Shown piece after piece: positions 19,767-63,643 of a DNA stretch of 64,000 bases. Below the pieces are notes generated by a model. That model was not told the DNA's origin. It saw nothing but the letters and a program-made list of their open reading frames with translations, and made no database searches. Positions within the stretch are counted from its first letter, which is position 1. Every line of letters starts with the position of its first letter. Source of the DNA: Agapetus fuscipes. Its lineage: Eukaryota; Arthropoda; Insecta; Trichoptera; Glossosomatidae. The DNA is taken from assembly GCA_951799405.1 (NCBI GenBank), contig OX637337.1, positions 21,016,347 to 21,080,346 of the forward strand, given 5' to 3'. Both the position numbers and the translations under genes were made by a program.

Positions 19767-48261
<28,495 letters not shown>

Positions 48262-51261: not shown

Positions 51262-51648
51262 TCAAATTCAGGGTGTGATATGTTGATAGGTATCTACAGA
51301 AATACAAATTCAGGGTGTGATATGTTGATAGGTATCTACAGAAATACAAATTCAGGGTGTGATATGTTGATAGGTATCTACAGAAATACAAATTCAGGGT
51401 GTGATATGTTGATAGGTATCTACAGAAATACAAATTCAGGGTGTGATATGTTGATAGGTATCTACAGAAATACAAATTCAGGTTGTGATATGTTGATAGG
51501 TATCTACAGAAATACAAATTCAGGGTGTGATATGTTGATAGGTATCTACAGAAATACAAATTCAGGGTGTGATATATTTTGATAGGTATCTACAGAAATA
51601 CAAATTTAGGGTGTGATATGTTGATAGGTATCTACAGAAATACAAAAA
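51262..51648. repeat. 42-bp minisatellite, nine units
   Basis: Units of AATTCAGGGTGTGATATGTT plus GATAGGTATCTACAGAAATAC-type sequence recur at exactly 42 bases (51272, 51314, 51356 and so on to 51611). One unit has a G-to-T change and one is slightly longer. Because 42 is divisible by three, both strands stay open, but this is not evidence of a protein. Confidence 0.95.
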
Positions 51649-54213: not shown

Positions 54214-54362
54214 TTACGCGTGGTTTGTTGCTGTTGCTACAGGTTTCGTCACTGGAGAGGCGGGCGGGGATCCAGCCTCTGCGTCTTCAGAATTCTCCTT
54301 TTCTTCTTCCTCGTCGATAATGGAGATGTCTCTGATCGAAGGACGATGAGAACGACGCCATC
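54214..54362 (-). CDS. Antiporter last exon: cytoplasmic tail
   Basis: The acceptor is CTTAACAG. It completes the Gly codon, then WRRSHRPSIRDISIIDEEEE and a Pro/Thr-rich end (PPASPVTKPVATATNHA) before TAA. It was found by phase and position; the acidic stretch suits a cytosolic tail. Confidence 0.8.
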
Positions 54363-57300
54363 CTGTTAAGAAAAAGACAAATATATGAGAGCGATGAATA
54401 GAGATTTTAAAGTAGAGGCGGTAGAGTCAACCGCTGTCCATATTCTTTTTGTATGTATAATTTTGGGCTATCACGGGTAGGGATTGCAATCCAGCAGCAT
54501 TTTCAATCCAGCTGGATTTTTGCTGGATCAACATCATTCCAGCTGGATCCAGCGCGGATCCAGCAGTTTATTGATTTTCGAAGAAATTGAATGTTTTTTT
54601 TTTAAATACTTAGGAAATGTGTTAATCAAACATTTTAACATAATAACAAATCACAATAATCAAAATTATAACTTAAACTCTTACTTTTAGAGTAGACACA
54701 CAGAGTAAAAGTTATAACAAAAATAAGTTTTTTCTTGACTTTTTATGAAGACAAAATTTATCTTTTTTTTCTGGTACCTAGTATGATCTCAAGAAACAAA
54801 TAGTATTAATGGTATTGTCTCCCAACCAGCTTCTTAATGAACTGCATATATATCCGGCTGCAGAGAAGGCCCTTTCTGCCTCTACGCTTGTTGGTTAGTT
54901 TCTGATAATCGTAATCTAACGTTCATAATCGTAAATAAAGTTAGGTTGTTAGGTTTTCTTTCTCACATTTTAGCTTAATCCCCAGATCTTGTTTCAATTC
55001 AAATTCAGTGAATCTGGTTTATCCTGTTCATAGTTTTTTACTTCCATTATATCTTCTTGCTCTTGCACTGTTGATGGTTCCACTAAATATGCGTTTACAC
55101 GAATCGGCATATTTTCATCTCCTGACGCATTGCATATTTTTTTTGCAATTTCTTCGTCATACTTCTTCGGGTTCTGTAGATAAATCTGCACACCTGTGAC
55201 ATCGGTAAGACGCCGTTTTTCGATTCTGTTGTGGAGTGCCTCAGCAAGGTCTGCACTCAAGATTATGCCCTGGCTTTTTAGTTTGTCTAAGACAAATTTT
55301 AGAGTTGTGTGATGTGTCAGCAGTTATCAAACTCGGCTCTCTTAACAGCTTAACCGGCTGAAAACTGGCGTCCTGGCGATCAACTCACTGATTAGTGACC
55401 ACTCGTCTGCTGAGAATTTAGTTTCTGAGGCAGTATCTATGAAGGCTTTATCGATGCAAACTTTTCAACTTTCAGCAAAAACGCTCCAGCATGCTGAGCA
55501 AACTGTTCCACTTAGTGCAGCAGTCAAGAATCAGACTCAATTCTTTGCCCTTTGCTTCCTTTATATATTTTTGCAAAAACATCTCATCTTTGGTAGCTAA
55601 TCTTTTAAAAGTCTTTGCAACTTTTCGCATTTTATTAAAAAGTTCACTGTATCGCTGAATCACTTCATGTTCAGCTGGTGTTTGTTCAATTATTACTAAT
55701 AAGCCTTCATTGGTGTCCGTGTCTTCGTCATCATAATAGAGCGGCAACATCGCTCTCGCCGAACTGTAAGAGCTTCTAGCAAACCGCCAATGCTGGCAAG
55801 CTAGACTTTGCGCCATTATTTGGAAAGTTTTATACTTGCGGATCCGCAGCGCTGGATCCAGCAGCCGGGGCTGGATCCAGCAGACCGAAAAATGCGCTGG
55901 ATCCAGCTGGATTGCTGGATGAGGGATCCAGCAATTGCAATCCCTAATTACAGGTGAATGTTTCAACTGTTCATCTACTTTACTGCTCATGGCGTGGCAT
56001 TGTAGAGGTATTTCAGGCCAGGACAATATTGAAGCACTCCTATTAAGTGCCGGACAGTCTTGATGACGATATCCAATTTATCTAAACATGATTTGCTGTG
56101 GATAATGGGGATGGTTGCAGATTCCCTACCTTCTAGCACTTGCGGCTGCCTGGTTTTGGTGAGCAGTCGGGGCCCAGACAGCGTGATGAGAATGGCTCCT
56201 AGGGGCGCCGTGCACACTATGGAGAGGATACAGATCATCAGCACGATCTCCGCCCAGGCCTTCTCCTCGTCCGTGCCGTTGTTCTTGATCACCATGTCGA
56301 GAGCCACGGGACCAAGGGCAGCCTGCAATACAACAAATGAAATTTCTCAATCAAGGTTAAGACATGATAGATTGGCCCATTGCCGAGGATCTTGACCGCT
56401 CTCCAGGGGGAATATAAAGACAGACGCTCATGTACCAAGAAGATAATTAGAAGATTTAATCTAACCCCTAGTTTAGTGGTAAACGCCACAGGTCTATAAT
56501 CGAAAGGTTTTCGTTTTCAATCGGAAGGTGTAGTATCACTTGTGAGAATATTTTTTTGCTTGAAACACATACTTCACTGTCTTCATCCCTGTTCAATCTT
56601 GTATTTCATGGCGCCATGATATTTGCTTTTTGCTGACACCTCGTTATACTTGTAAGCAATTCCCTCTCAGTTCTGGCTTTGCGGAGCACATCTGAGTTGC
56701 TACTTGCTGACCATATTTCTACATGATAACATTTTACAGTACAACCAAATTTAAAATGATTCAGATGCTTCATAATATTTATTCTAAGAAACTTTTTTAT
56801 TTGTAAGTACACATTCAGCATTTGTAAGCGCGAACTACACTTGTTGGTTTGTGGGCATACATCTGAGAGCTTTAAATGAATATATCCTTGCAACTTAGAT
56901 TATAGATTATTGTTTACATCAGTTAAAAAAAAACAGTTTGTGATCATTTTTGAAATTTGCAAGGCTTTTCTTTTCAATAATCCAAAGGTATCACCAACAA
57001 TTAATATACAGTAATGGATGAATAATGCAACTGCAAGTATGGAGAAGAGTAAACACCAATTACCTGAACTGTGGCTTTTGCCATCCAAGACAGTCCTACG
57101 AAGAACTTCTCCTTAGTGTTGAGGTTGCTGCCAAAGCCAATACCAGCTGTCACTAAGATACGGATCACAACTCCAGTGTAGAGACAGCCTACTCCAATAG
57201 AGACGATGTGGCCATCCAACTCATCCAACTGAAATTTATTTATTTATTTATTTATTTACGGCGTTAGCCTTTTACGAAATAAGTACATATCAAGGGAGTT

Positions 57301-60300
57301 TATACAAAACAACAATAACAATAAATATTACAAGAATAAAAAGTATAAAACATTACGGTAAAACATAAAAGAAAAGAAAAGAAAAAATAAACCCATATAT
57401 AAACACTAAACAGTAGGTTAGAAGCAAAAAAAAAAGCATATCAAAAATAAAAACTTCAGAAACCATTCAAATATCACTAATAAAGAAATTCACCAGGCAG
57501 ACATCGTTCATATAATAACAATCTAAAACAATATAATTTATTATATATTATGGATGTCCCAAAAACATTTTTTTCAGACCTTGGTTATAGGTATGATAAT
57601 TATTATTATGCAGAACCAAGTCAAGTGAGGCATACTCATTACCAACACGCTGTAAACGATGCATACAACTATTGCTTTGTGCGTTAGTGCTAGTAAATAC
57701 AGGGCGGTAAGAAACTAATTGTCTAGTCCCTGAACGTGGAGTAAAAAAATTCAACTCACCAAGTAGTGCAGGACAATCAATTAGAGCATGTTTTATTTTG
57801 AAGAGGGTGATTAAGTCAATAAATTTACGTCTGTCTGACATAAAGTTTAGATTTAGAATCGAATTTAAATAGAGCGGGTCGAAGTGTGACAGGGGAATAT
57901 TGAGTTTAAAATTAACTATTTTCAAAAATTTTAAGTGAACCTTTTCTATATTGTCTACGTGCACCATGTAGAGGGGGGACCAAACAGGCGAGCAATATTC
58001 CAAAACACTGCGAACCAATGTGGTATAAAGAATTTTGATTGCGGCAGTGTCCTGAAAGTCCTTGGTGATGCGGTTTATGAAACCAAGCATTCTCATGGCC
58101 TTGGCACAAATTGAAGCAATGTGTACATTAAAAGATAATCCACAGTCAAACACAACCCCCAAGTCGGTGACCTCCGTTACCACCCGAAGACTGTTTGAAA
58201 AAAGTGTATAGTCATATATAATGGGATTTTTTATTCTGAAGAAATTCATTACTAAACACTTCGAGACATTTAGAGGCAATTCATTTTTATTACACCAGGT
58301 TGCTAGATTATTCAAAGATAATTGGAGACTATTACAGTCAGCCACATTATCTATGACTTTAAAAATTTTTATATCGTCAGCAAACAGGAGAACATTTGTG
58401 TCAGGAAATTGCTTTGTAATATCATCAATAAATAGGAGAAAAAGTAGCGGGCCCAGATGGGAACCCTGGGGGACACCACTAGTTGGTGAGAAGGAGTGTG
58501 AGCTATTATTATCTATTCTGACAATCAAAGATCTATCAATAAGGTAGTTTCGGAGCCAAGACAGAAAACTACCAGACACCCCCATACCGCGTAGCTTACT
58601 AAGAAGGATAGTGTGTGATACCCGATCAAACGCTTTTGAAAAATCAGTGTAAATTACGTCAACTTGTTTTCGGCTAGACAAAGCATTAGAAAGGAAATTT
58701 TCAAACACCATTAAATTAGAAGTAGTTGATCGGTTTGGTAAAAAACCATGTTGATGGACTGAAATTGATCTGGTTGCAACGTACCGGATTTTAGTAAGTA
58801 CAAGCTTTTCAAGTAGCTTCGGAATGGCGGACAATTTACTTATTGGTCGATAGTTTTTGACGTTACTCCTATCACCAGACTTGTATATTGGAGAAAGATA
58901 CGATTGCTTCCAAAGGGCGGGAAAACATCCAGACGCGATGGACAAATTAAATACCGCACACAGAGGTTGAGACAAGCTATGTACACAGTTTTTCAACATT
59001 ACCGCTGGGACATTATCAGGGCCAGGATTAGTAAGTGGTTTCATTGATTCAATTTCTGTGATGACATCAACTACACTAAATGACAAATTAGACAGTTGTA
59101 AATCAATATGTGAAGAGAATTCAAACGTATTACAGTCAGGATGAATATCATAAACGCTTTTAAAGAAAGATGCAAAAAGGTTAGGAATTTCTTGAACATC
59201 ATCAGATGACACATCATCATAAAAAACATTTTGTGGGATACCGAGATCGCCCTTTCTCAGAGAGTTAGCATATGACCAGAATTTTTTCACATTATGGACA
59301 ATAGAGCGCTCAGTGTTGGAAATGTAATTTAAATAACAATTTTTGGACAGAATTTTGCAATCATTACGTAATTTCTTAAAATCTAGATAATCTGAAGAAG
59401 AATTAGAGATTTTATATTTCAGATGAGCCACTTTCTTATCCTTTATGAGATCAATTAAATCATGACTAAACCATTTGGGATATTTCCAAGAATAAGGACT
59501 AAGCTTAAAAGTAGGTACAAATTTAGTGATCGCTTCGGATAGAATAGAGTACAGATTATTTACTACAACTTCAATATCATCATTATTTACAAAAGAAAAG
59601 TCAACACTCTGAAAAAATATATTCATATGAACAAAATCAGCTTTAGAAAAGTCTACAATATAAGTGGTATTATGGTTTTTATGTTGGACATTAGATGGAA
59701 GAGAGATGGAAAGAGGTGGATGGTATGTATCGATGGGAACAAGGATATCAGATGATTCTATAGATTTAGCAGCATTATCACTGCAAAAAACTAGATCCAA
59801 AATACGATTACGAGCATTTAATGTGAAATTAATTTGAAAAAAGTTTAAAAAGTTACAAAGATTTAATATGGTAGTTTCCGCCAGTGAGAAGTTCGAAGTA
59901 TGGCATTTAGGTAACAAGGGATCAGCTTCATTCCATGATATATTAGGCAAGTTAAAATCACCTACAATCAAGAATTTTGAATGAGGGAACTTATTCCTCA
60001 TAGCTTCAACCTCAGCTGCAAAGCCACTGTAGAGCTCAACACAAGAGCTAGGGGGCCAGTATACACATGCAATTATATATGAAGGATCAGTAAGCAGCAG
60101 TACAAATATGAGTTCAGTGGTCTTGTTGATACAGGGGATCACTTTTGATTGAATGGATTTAGAAACAGCAAGTAGCACACCCCCTCCACGCGACTTGGTA
60201 CTTGTGCTAGTAGATCGATCAGCCGATATGTATTGTAATTATTAAAGCCAAGCTCTGAAGAATTAACGTCAGGCGTCAACCAAGTCTCGGTTAGTGCAAA

Positions 60301-63300
60301 AATATCAAACTTCAATAATGCGGAACTAGATCGGACCATATTCAGCTTGGAATTTAAGCCCCTTACATTTTGGTAGTACATTTTTAAAATTAGTTTTTTG
60401 ATGTTGAAGCTGTAGCGGTCTTGGATATAAAAGGTACCCCATCCCTGAATTTCATAATTAAACTGGTCTCCCCCGCTGACCTCCTCTCCTCCAGCTCCTT
60501 CCACTTAGATGCCAGGAACCTCTGTTGGAATGGAGTTAGGTCTGGCTTAATTTTTATTGATCTCCTCCGGTGAGATCGGGAGAAAAGTATTTTTCTCGCG
60601 GACTCCGCATCATTGAGGTATACTTTCAGAGGACGAACCTTCCCATCGGAAGGTTGACCAAGTCTGTAGCAGCGTATTATTTCCAAATCTGGCATTCCCA
60701 TCTCATCAACCAATTCTTTAATCTTCATTTTATCGCCCATTCTGTCTTCTACTTCAGGTACATTGAAGACTATTACATTTTTGGAGCGGACTTCCCGCTC
60801 CTTCACTTCAGTTAATGCTTCAATGAAGCTTGCTGGTTCATTCTTCACTCTTTTTATGGCATTTGTTTCCCCTTCGAGGCGTCCAATTTCGATTGCCATG
60901 GCTCCAACAGCACCGGATAACTCGGTAGTTAAAGGTGTTATTTTGCTAATTTGGTCTCTGGTAAACTTATTAGAAGAGTCCATAATAATTTTATTAAGTG
61001 TTTGTAAAATTAAATTTGCATTGGCCAGCAGGTCTTGAGCCATATTTATGATTATAATTATGATTTTGAAGTTAAATGTAAAAAGCGATGTCTATCGCCT
61101 GGTGGCGAAAGTTTTATTAAAATAAGTAGAATTACCAACTCAAAAAAGTAAAAATAAAAGGTTTAGTTTAAGATAGCGCCGCTATTTGGTCAGTAGAGAA
61201 AGCTTATTTTTGTTTTTAAATTTATGTACCCACTTAAAAGTCAGATTTCGTGTATATTACAATCCATTAAAAAGCACTAAAAACCGCTTGCGCACAAATT
61301 ATAAGCACTGTAAACAAAATGTTTTTTCTCTTAAAGCACTATTGGAACACTTTTGATAGAATTTAATTAAAATTGAAGACTAATTCAAATATTTTCGCTA
61401 GGAGCAAAATTGTGTGTTGTATTGTGATGTTGTGTATAATAGGTGAAATGGAAAAATCAGCGTTATTGAACTTCGTAACATAAATAAAGATTTCACCTAA
61501 TAACGTCAAAGGTTCAACACAGAAACGAGGCTTGAATATTTGGGAAACACAAAGTTTTCATCTATGAATGAAGGTAGGTTAAGTTTTGATAGCTTTGATG
61601 GAAGATAAAGTTTAGATGGCTTGACTCAAGCCACTATAATATGTACACGCCGTATTTTTCAGTTCTTCGAACACGTTGTCCGTAGCGATGAAGATACCTC
61701 GAAACAACTGATTGTGATTGGTAACTTGGACGGGAAGAGAGGAGGAGAAAGATATTCCACACTATGGACTGATCAAGTGAAAACAGCATCATGCACCTCG
61801 GTGGCTAGAGCGCTAGTCAAGAGAGAACTGGATAAGAGTGGTTTCTTCCACAAAAGTCACAACCCTCAGTAATGGATAGGATGAAGAAGGAAATACAGGT
61901 TTGCACAACTAAATATAAATTAAATAAAAAATACGAACACCTGAATTTTTACATTAGCTTGTATGTTAAGGTAAAAAAGATTTGCCCATTTGGCGCTAGA
62001 TGTCCATGTCCAATTTTTTTAAGGAATCCTGTGTGGGAGGCTCCCCAATTCTTGAGAGTCTCGGGGGCCTATGTCACTCTGGAAGGGTGCCGCAGAGGTG
62101 TTGCTTGGACTGTTGCTTTGTCGTGAGGTGCTGCAAGGAAGTGGCGATTGATGTTGGTTTTGAATAAAACCAGATTAAATTGGGAAGGGAACACAGATAC
62201 TGGTAGATCATTTCATAAAAATCGCAGTTTAACAAAGGAATGAGTCATGAAAACGCCAAGTTCTCATAGTTTTGAGATCGACTGCAAAGGGATGAATGAG
62301 AGTCGTACTACGAGTTTTCCTTTCTGAAATGCGAGAGAAGGGGGAAATTAATGAATAGAGCTCATTAGAACAAGCTCTGTGATATTATCGGTAAAAAAGA
62401 CTGAGCATTCCAACTTTTCTTCTGTGCCGGAGCGGCTGCAGATTGGATGTCAGAGAAGGATCATTGATCAACCTCACTGCCCTTCTTTGCACAGAATTAA
62501 GTTGAAACAATCAAATACAAGATGCAAATTCTATATACAAGCGGTGCATTCTAAATTCATATAAAATAAAAGCTTAGTAATTTTTAAATGAGTCATAGAT
62601 TACGAAAATATGACCGAACAAAGTGATCTCACGTGCTGGGAAAGAAGCCATTATAAACCAATCATTCAATTTGTTTGTTTTGCAATTTGTCTTATAAGTG
62701 AAAAACTATTAAGCAGCTAATCACTGACGCGTGTAAAGATGAGACATCCAAAATTAAATTAATTGTTGAACAATAATGCAATTCATAATTTTGTTAATAT
62801 CCATTTTACGAAACAGGGATTTCTGAAAATTTTAATGCATCAATTATTTTGGTTGAATGTTGTAGAGTATTTTGCTGGTAGCAATTTAAATGATTAATAG
62901 TAAAGAATCTCTTGGTTGGTTTTTAATTGTACGATTATTCTTCTTTGTACTTTAGGGAAATGAAAGAGCCCAGAGCATCCAAACCACTCATAAACAAATT
63001 CAACAGCACGACGAATAATTGCAATGCACGCGAATAAAGAATTGCATTTGTTTGTGCACTCCAGAATTTATCCTAACATACGCCCGAGCAGTGCAAACGT
63101 TCATTGCGAAAACCCAGCCTCATACCCGTTTGGTTTATATACTTTCCAATGGTAAGTATTGAACATAAATATGAATCAATAAATAAATAAAAACCCCTAA
63201 GAGCCACTGAGATTAAGCCACCACATTCCATTGCAGACAAAACACTTCTACACAGATTTGAAAACTTAAATGTCAGGAAAACATGAGATATCGATGATGT

Positions 63301-63643
63301 TATGTGGGGAAGAAGAGCAATAACAAGCTTTAAGAAAGATCATATGAGAAGAGCAAATCTAAAAAGTGGTAAGCGTAGAAACAGAAACCAAGAGACGCAA
63401 GTATAGCTGTTGGACATCCAAGGAACAGACTTCGCAATCAACACGAAGCAGTCATAAACTATAGAGGAAGATGACCAAAGATATCCACCTTGACTCCAGC
63501 TCCAGTTATTCCGAAAAGCAGTGGCTCGAAGACCATCCAGAAGATCTCAAAGGCCGTGGCAACAGGGTTGTGTTCCACGTCCCAACCTTGCTCAGACCAG
63601 TGCAGGCAGGAGACGAAGGCTGCGGTGATCACGGCTAAGGGAC
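54214..63643 (-). CDS. NHA/SLC9B-type Na+/H+ antiporter, last four exons
   Basis: CPA2-family cation-proton antiporter of the plasma or mitochondrial/vesicular membrane; the 5' exons lie beyond the window. Exons on the - strand are 63643-63489, 57228-57064, 56322-56130 and 54362-54214; all phases join, giving 219 residues and a TAA at 54216. Motifs: FEPLLFGITGAGVK, GVVIRILVTAGIGFG, SWMAKATVQAALGPVALD and APLGAILITLSGPRLL, then an acidic, Ser/Pro-rich cytoplasmic tail (DEEEEKENSEDAEAG). The Arg in IRIL and the Lys in AKATVQ align with residues studied functionally in human NHA2. The intron before exon 57228 holds a LINE that abuts its splice acceptor, and the last intron holds a hAT relic. The family is secure, the orthologue not decided. 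Confidence 0.88.
54478..55946 (-). mobile_element. hAT transposon relic with diverged 8-bp TSD
   Basis: The terminal repeats TAGGGATTGCAAT and its inverse sit at 54478 and 55946. The flanks ATCACGGG and ATTACAGG agree at six of eight positions. Both ends carry several GGATCCAGC/GCTGGATCC motifs, typical hAT subterminal binding repeats. Degenerate transposase pieces lie between. It is in the last antiporter intron. Confidence 0.85.
54994..55850 (-). pseudogene. hAT transposase fragments, broken
   Basis: The - strand upstream piece (about 55850-55472) reads LLVIIEQTPAEHEVIQRYSE, KYIKEAKGKELSLILDC and WNSLLSMLERFC, a typical hAT block. A second piece (55260-54994) reads LAEALHNRIEKRRLTDVTG and IYLQNPKKYDEE. 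Frameshifts and stops separate them. The BED finger and the C-terminal hATC region are not found, so it is inactive. Confidence 0.75.
56130..56322 (-). CDS. Antiporter exon
   Basis: Begins AALGPVALD after TTGCAG and ends RQPQVLE plus one base at GAAG|GTAGGG. It encodes the last helices. Reading through the donor would add 48 unrelated residues. Confidence 0.9.
56800..56910 (+). repeat. LA-tail 3' fragment
   Basis: ATTTGTAAGTACACATTCAGC to CCTTGCAACTTAGATTATAG, in an antiporter intron. Confidence 0.65.
57064..57228 (-). CDS. Antiporter exon with LINE at its acceptor
   Basis: 55 codons, phase 0 at both ends (LDELDGHIVSIGVG to SWMAKATVQ). The acceptor TTTCAG is preceded by five TAAA units of LINE tail instead of a pyrimidine tract. 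The donor is CAG|GTAATT. Confidence 0.9.
57548..60381 (-). pseudogene. LINE ORF2 (endonuclease and RT) with one frameshift
   Basis: The start MYYQNVRGLNSKLN opens the AP-type endonuclease, with LTETWL after it. A single indel near 60215-60235 shifts the frame; the rest (SRGGGVLLAVSKSI, IIACVYWPPSS, FLIVGDFNLPNISW) continues in the other frame to 57548. RT blocks: NYRPISKLSAIPKLLEKLV, HGFLPNRSTTSNL, YTDFSKAFDRVSH, SGVPQGSHLGPLLFLLFIDD and LLFADDIKIF. It is otherwise intact over about 944 codons, so it is a young copy disabled by one lesion, or by a sequencing error. Confidence 0.85.
60390..61043 (-). CDS. LINE ORF1 protein
   Basis: 217 codons, intact. The N-terminal half is helical and coiled-coil-like (AIEIGRLEGETNAIKRVK). 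The central region, about residues 85-165, is RRM-like (KNVIVFNVPEVEDRMGDK, IIRCYRLGQPSDGKVRPLKV). A basic C-terminal region follows (RRRSIKIKPDLTPFQQRFLA). This is the nucleic-acid-binding ORF1 seen in many two-ORF LINEs. The stop TAA lies 8 bases before the ORF2 ATG. Confidence 0.8.
   Translation of the reverse strand: MAQDLLANANLILQTLNKIIMDSSNKFTRDQISKITPLTTELSGAVGAMAIEIGRLEGETNAIKRVKNEPASFIEALTEVKEREVRSKNVIVFNVPEVEDRMGDKMKIKELVDEMGMPDLEIIRCYRLGQPSDGKVRPLKVYLNDAESARKILFSRSHRRRSIKIKPDLTPFQQRFLASKWKELEERRSAGETSLIMKFRDGVPFISKTATASTSKN
61145..61620. other. Antiporter intron with the displaced polypyrimidine tract
   Basis: On the - strand the bases just before the LINE read CCTTTTATTTTTACTTTTTT and then the GAG of the upstream target duplication. 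The rest is ordinary AT-rich intron. Confidence 0.6.
61640..61870 (+). mobile_element. LINE C-terminal fragment
   Basis: Encodes RIFQFFEHVVRSDED and DGKRGGERYSTLWTDQVK, the C-terminal pattern of LINE-A/B-like elements. It is short and isolated. Confidence 0.6.
62010..62150 (-). repeat. 5S/tRNA SINE body fragment, diverged
   Basis: The inverse of CACCTCTGCGGCACCC and CCTAGAGTCT-like phrases are present with many changes. Confidence 0.45.
62160..63455. other. Antiporter intron, nothing recognised
   Basis: No gene or clear element ends were seen. Confidence 0.35.
63489..63643 (-). CDS. Antiporter exon (first in window)
   Basis: The acceptor CTTGCAG precedes a split Gly codon. It encodes PLAVITAAFVSCLHW and FWMVFEPLLFGITGAGVK. 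The donor AAG|GTGGAT is weak but gives an exact-length match to the human NHA2 segment as I recall it. Confidence 0.88.

Follow-up and report, generated by a model that had tools for sequence, protein, structure and literature searches.

A young LINE inserted in the acceptor of an antiporter exon in Agapetus fuscipes probably forms a composite 3' splice site

The window analysed here, a 64,000-nucleotide stretch of the genome of Agapetus fuscipes (contig OX637337.1, positions 21,016,347 to 21,080,346), holds on its - strand the last four exons of an SLC9B/NHA-type antiporter gene, designated exons A to D. A long interspersed nuclear element (LINE), which is a retrotransposon without long terminal repeats (non-LTR), is almost certainly inserted in the acceptor of exon B. 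The copy is young, full-length and TAAA-tailed, and it lies in the orientation of the gene in the last intron bases before the exon. The account favoured here, with a probability of about 0.6, comprises this insertion, a composite acceptor, and weakened splicing with some skipping. The LINE would supply the end of the intron, namely a CTAAC at -36 and a TAAA spacer free of AG, and the old site would supply TTTCAG; the bases themselves are present, and their joint function is predicted. Exon B is most likely still spliced at this site with lowered efficiency, and some transcripts would skip its 55 residues in frame. Taken by itself, continued use of the acceptor is reasonably probable, and weakened inclusion is favoured because the branch-point-like site and the AG are both kept. 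The locus is a natural experiment in which a very young LINE has replaced the intron 3' end of a conserved transporter gene and left TTTCAG alone. Continued splicing of exon B would mean that branch point and spacer can come from a LINE 3' end with no pyrimidine tract present; otherwise, this genome carries a broken antiporter allele.

Table 1. Positions in the window of the antiporter exons, the LINE and the sequences around the acceptor of exon B
Feature	Positions	Strand	Basis
Antiporter exon A (precedes exon B)	63489..63643	-	homology, frame
GATTTTTCCATTTC, true 5' flank of the LINE and probable former tract, at present 4.2 kb away from exon B	61445..61458	-	5' boundary of the LINE defined from other copies
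Full-length non-LTR retrotransposon (LINE), sense to the antiporter, ~4,210 bp including the (TAAA)6 tail	57235..61444	-	other genomic copies; RVT_1, Exo_endo_phos_2
Part of the LINE 5' untranslated region (UTR), formerly claimed as tract and GAG copy	61135..61164	-	30-mer in 18/18 fetched copies reaching that point
LINE open reading frame (ORF) 1	60393..61043	-	open frame without internal stop
LINE ORF2 (endonuclease and reverse transcriptase), one frameshift near 60222	57551..60381	-	homologs aligned in two frames on either side of the break
CTAAC resembling a branch point, within the 3' end of the LINE; its A (57264) is at -36 relative to exon B	57263..57267	-	sequence; no AG until TTTCAG
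LINE tail (TAAA)6, with 5 overlapping AATAAA hexamers	57235..57258	-	sequence
TTTCAG, present acceptor; TTTCA in the downstream copy of a probable short target duplication	57229..57234	-	sequence
Antiporter exon B (165 nt, 55 residues), approximately tenth of the coding exons	57064..57228	-	homology, frame
Antiporter exon C (follows exon B)	56130..56322	-	homology, frame
Antiporter exon D, last coding exon, with stop	54214..54362	-	homology, frame

The account is supported by element ends that are defined by copies in the same genome and by a six-base match between the two junctions. The genome (618 Mb, 148 contigs) was searched with a query beginning at 61250, and at least 42 matches were found including the window itself (792 first-look candidates, 39 scored); nineteen other matches start at query base 1 and one at base 3. 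Twenty other copies (L009-L028) were fetched, and they align from ~61444 to the tail at 96.4-99.6% identity. The start lies no more than one base from 61444 in 12 of the 20 and at 61403-61441 in six, and two are 5'-truncated further in. Most copies share the start ACCTATTATACAC with differing flanks. The printed 3' ends share GGCT(A/T)ACGCCG followed by a TAAA tail; all 36 other 3' ends have this tail, which in one is mostly A. An earlier note on this DNA had given a LINE of 3900 bp and five TAAA units before exon B. The tail is indeed there, but it has six units, and by the extent of the other copies the element measures ~4,210 bp.

Judged by its domains and by dispersed copies with shared ends, the element is an EN+RT-type LINE with endonuclease and reverse transcriptase in one ORF. 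ORF2 matches RVT_1 (E 2.9e-31) and Exo_endo_phos_2 (E 1.2e-10), and no Pfam match to ORF1 was found at E 0.001. The frameshift lies in the N-terminal part of ORF2, at an indel column in which the window copy disagrees with at least 13 of 15 other copies. One protein match is named transposon BS-like, and the element presumably belongs to the Jockey/CR1 group. The LINE protein was not found by a related-locus search of the viral_contigs and genome_contigs collections, an exact 23-base pattern from the LINE 5' UTR was not found in viral_contigs, and no second copy was found inside the window. The window copy was compared with the 15 near-identical copies L009-L023, excluding L024-L026 (at 96-97%) and the truncated L027 and L028; of 4,176 columns, 10 show a substitution private to the window copy and one a private indel. 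These private substitutions were used in place of an age bound from missing stops, which was dropped. By this count the insertion is young, and it may be polymorphic.

The 5' flank of the LINE in the window reads GCTGATTTTTCCATTTC, and its tail is followed by TTTCAG|TTGGATGAG. The two junctions share ATTTCA (6 nt), which is a probable short target duplication. Among 420 mispaired junctions drawn from the 21 copies, 5 reach six shared bases and 19 reach five. With the duplication read once, the reconstructed empty site is CTGATTTTTCCATTTCAG|TTGGATGAG, and exon B is there preceded by GATTTTTCCATTTCAG. The empty site was most likely this ordinary acceptor, of which about ATTTCA would have been duplicated on insertion. 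Since TTTCAG is the sole remnant of the old intron beside exon B, the former tract must be sought upstream of the LINE, where TTTTTCCATTTC is found. By this reconstruction, the LINE parted the AG from its tract without any GAG copy. As observations by eye, the bases preceding the LINE start in L009, L011 and L015 resemble the first 20 bases of the LINE itself (partial 5' repeats), and the 5' junctions of the family look irregular.

The earlier note had proposed instead a LINE starting at 61134 with a 10-bp duplication of the acceptor, of which the upstream copy had mutated to GAG behind a perfect pyrimidine tract. A ten-base copy, TTTGAGTTGG, does lie at 61144-61135 (-) beside a pyrimidine-rich stretch, and nine of its ten bases agree, but it lies within the element and not at its other end. 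The 30-mer at 61164-61135 occurs in all 18 fetched copies that reach this point (15 exact, 3 with one mismatch; the other two of the 20 are 5'-truncated) and homology runs on to ~61444, so the supposed GAG copy is internal to the LINE. The 10-base duplication, its GAG copy and the tract at 61161-61142 are therefore LINE 5' UTR, and the model of a start at 61134 is refuted. The tract was also not perfect, because CCTTTTATTTTTACTTTTTT, which precedes TTTGAGTTGG, has two A's. Within the window alone the claim had seemed reasonable, as ten-mers within one mismatch of TTTCAGTTGG number 5 on both strands, and two of them are the claimed pair itself. With 4,000 random stretches, however, a 9/10 match arose by chance 19, 81 and 177 times when the region was 41, 151 and 351 nt long, respectively. 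The upstream TGAGTTGG, considered as a better match to the exon-internal GAGTTGG, is moot, being part of the same LINE-internal stretch. A 9/10 'target duplication' beside a pyrimidine-rich stretch was here a coincidence that only other copies of the element exposed. What stands of the earlier proposal is that a LINE sits in the acceptor and has parted the AG from an upstream tract, which probably lies at 61458-61445; the loss of the acceptor is not borne out, as TTTCAG is kept and the LINE offers CTAAC.

Pyrimidines were counted at -24 to -5 for 11 antiporter acceptors. The ten acceptors other than that of exon B have 10, 15, 13, 12, 13, 16, 12, 17, 12 and 15 pyrimidines of 20. The reconstructed empty site has 13, which is within their range of 10-17, and a CTGAT at -15. 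Pyrimidine runs in the filled site reach at most 3, which also holds for the acceptors E2 and E5 (two of the ten others). A YTNAY motif at -15 to -50 is present in 9 of the ten others. The motif of the LINE is a regular part of its 3' end, as CTAAC is printed in 32 and CTTAC in 5 of 37 such ends. In cited experiments, a decrease of tract pyrimidines from 70% to 30% left AG recognition and 3' cleavage unaffected, according to the accessible part of the report (PMC10946897). As a separate observation, exon B opens (57228-57211, -) with two nearly identical units in tandem, TTGGATGAG TTGGATGG; an AG in frame, 9 nt into the exon, could be an alternative acceptor.

Several points weigh against the favoured account. 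The target duplication is weak, with only TTTC unambiguous. The true junction pairs of the other copies share four bases or fewer in 16 of 20 cases (none in 5 of 20), and four reach five or more; the family so appears to leave short or irregular target duplications. The filled acceptor of exon B is the lowest of the 11 with 6 of 20 pyrimidines (30%), the next lowest having 10, and the positions of the other acceptors were assigned by reading frame and AG rather than by RNA. In the portion consulted of a study of NF1, Alu insertions into the AG or the tract led to exon skipping in 4/4 cases (PMC3219598).

The low pyrimidine content and the NF1 cases also favour the view that the acceptor is effectively dead. 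Exon B would then be skipped, and an in-frame protein without 55 residues, including a conserved Arg and Lys, would be made from a likely loss-of-function allele. The frame is preserved on skipping, as the earlier note had stated. Moreover, a 4,739-bp non-LTR insertion in the pink bollworm is described, in the part of the report at hand, as causing the loss of exon 21 (PMC6522560). On the other hand, an AG and a consensus-like branch point are present and exon B is intact, though the absence of decay is uninformative in so young a copy. Complete skipping is considered unlikely. Fly relatives of the antiporter are needed for viability and under salt stress, as stated in the available text of PMC9174904.

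The other outcome to be weighed is that the LINE tail acts as a polyadenylation signal, so that transcripts terminate at this point and the antiporter is cut short after exon A. The tail holds five overlapping AATAAA hexamers, with CA and a G/T-rich stretch of exon B behind them and GTTGGATGAGTTGGATGG just downstream. Nowhere else in the window, on either strand, do five AATAAA fall within 25 nt, and the LINE is sense to the gene. However, the hexamers follow from the family-wide repeat tail and do not require use as a signal, and intronic polyadenylation signals are often suppressed. Such termination is held to be improbable, more so than complete skipping. A composite acceptor that splices with lowered efficiency remains the preferred explanation.

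The antiporter search extended over eight further stretches outside the window, and a tblastn search with four insect homologs over 94 kb found about twelve exons in order that are homologous to insect NHA genes and reach ~76.6 kb (extended window coordinates). The matches near 76.6 and 74.8 kb, which are included in the twelve, are weak (E 0.035 and 0.019). Neither a stop nor a frame break occurs in the matched stretches. By homology, the gene is an insect SLC9B/NHA-type antiporter with predicted ion exchange activity. Exon B has the extent, the 165-nt length, the phase 0/0 and the position directly after TTTCAG that the earlier note had given. The Arg and Lys positions indicated there were also found: exon B has matches among solved NHA structures, in which its Arg corresponds to residue 431 of 7p1i_B and residue 432 of 7b4l_A, and both Arg and Lys are kept in 120/120 homologs (the best 120 of 477), each of which covers at least 50 of the 55 residues. 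The published numbering of this Arg is R431 in bison and R432 in human, as given in the accessible text of PMC9174904. Separately, the annotated Phthorimaea operculella homolog P0122 contains three tandem copies of a stretch like exon B, which may reflect duplicated exons or an error of annotation.

Retroelements in acceptors are already known, and a sense, A-rich LINE tail as a new intron end is less usual. The following comparisons draw on partial texts of the cited reports. In canine merle, a short interspersed nuclear element (SINE) is located at the boundary of PMEL intron 10 and exon 11, so that a retroelement lies at an acceptor as in the antiporter; the target duplication (15 bp in merle, a probable one in the antiporter), the original acceptor beside the exon and the simple-repeat tail near the acceptor are further likenesses (PMC7349775, PMC6091007). 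In contrast, the merle SINE lies in antisense orientation, with a poly(T) that provides both a pyrimidine tract and a cryptic acceptor, whereas the LINE is sense with an A-rich tail (PMC7349775, PMC6091007). The NF1 Alu insertions resemble the present case in target-primed insertion into an acceptor region, but they are disease mutations with RNA evidence of skipping, and the antiporter case is known from sequence alone (PMC3219598). The cadherin alleles r15 and r3 of the pink bollworm likewise represent retroelement insertion and mis-splicing in an insect gene, although the r15 insertion is inside exon 28 (PMC6522560). Introners recruit a splice site from a target duplication, a probable parallel to the present acceptor, but they create new introns, whereas the existing antiporter intron grew by 4.2 kb (PMC9860276). 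The LINE was rejected as an introner, as it is one part of the 6.26-kb intron between exons A and B, whose donor is ~2 kb upstream of the LINE. In the literature searched, which covered few subscription journals, no report was found in which a LINE supplies the branch point of a disrupted acceptor or a sense A-rich LINE tail forms an intron end; PMC3329465 and PMC3976383 contributed nothing decisive.

A broader proposal, which is tentative and rather doubtful, is that the LINE family carries a portable intron end, such that a copy inserted in sense immediately ahead of an AG would put its own motif in place of the branch point. The number of TAAA units would then set the distance from branch point to exon at exon B as 12 + 4n (36 here), and variation in repeat length would tune exon B inclusion, as a sense, A-rich counterpart of merle. 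One other copy, L019 (G000:C24:1387043-1393356), is in sense orientation and ends 39 nt short of an exon that resembles 26S proteasome subunit 6B, an arrangement that also counts in favour of continued splicing at exon B. No YTNAY is present in these 39 nt, the nearest upstream being the LINE CTAAC at -61; if the proposal is true, L019 would be a second instance. L019 is uninformative on targeting because it is one case among 36 other 3' flanks, and exons were checked in two of them (L010 and L019). In L010, the TTACAG after the tail was rejected as an acceptor, since the three frames behind it stop after 17, 8 and 9 codons.

Other repeats were observed in the introns of the gene. About 110 bp at 56795-56911, in the intron after exon B, recur at 91-100% identity in 5 of the 20 fetched stretches (L009, L012, L015, L017 and L024) and represent a dispersed repeat. 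Degenerate frames at 62072-62510 (-), in the intron between exons A and B, look by eye like a C-terminal portion of another LINE. Between exons C and D, the intron has a weak match to a hAT dimerisation domain at 54781-54894 (-; E 0.0032, below the Pfam cut-off). Elsewhere in the window, a 42-bp tandem repeat of about nine copies with 97% matches is located at 51263-51646, a 738-codon open frame with a reverse transcriptase domain at 32712-34928 (+), and a full-length 5S rRNA match (Rfam RF00001, 77.3 bits) at 29376-29494 (+).

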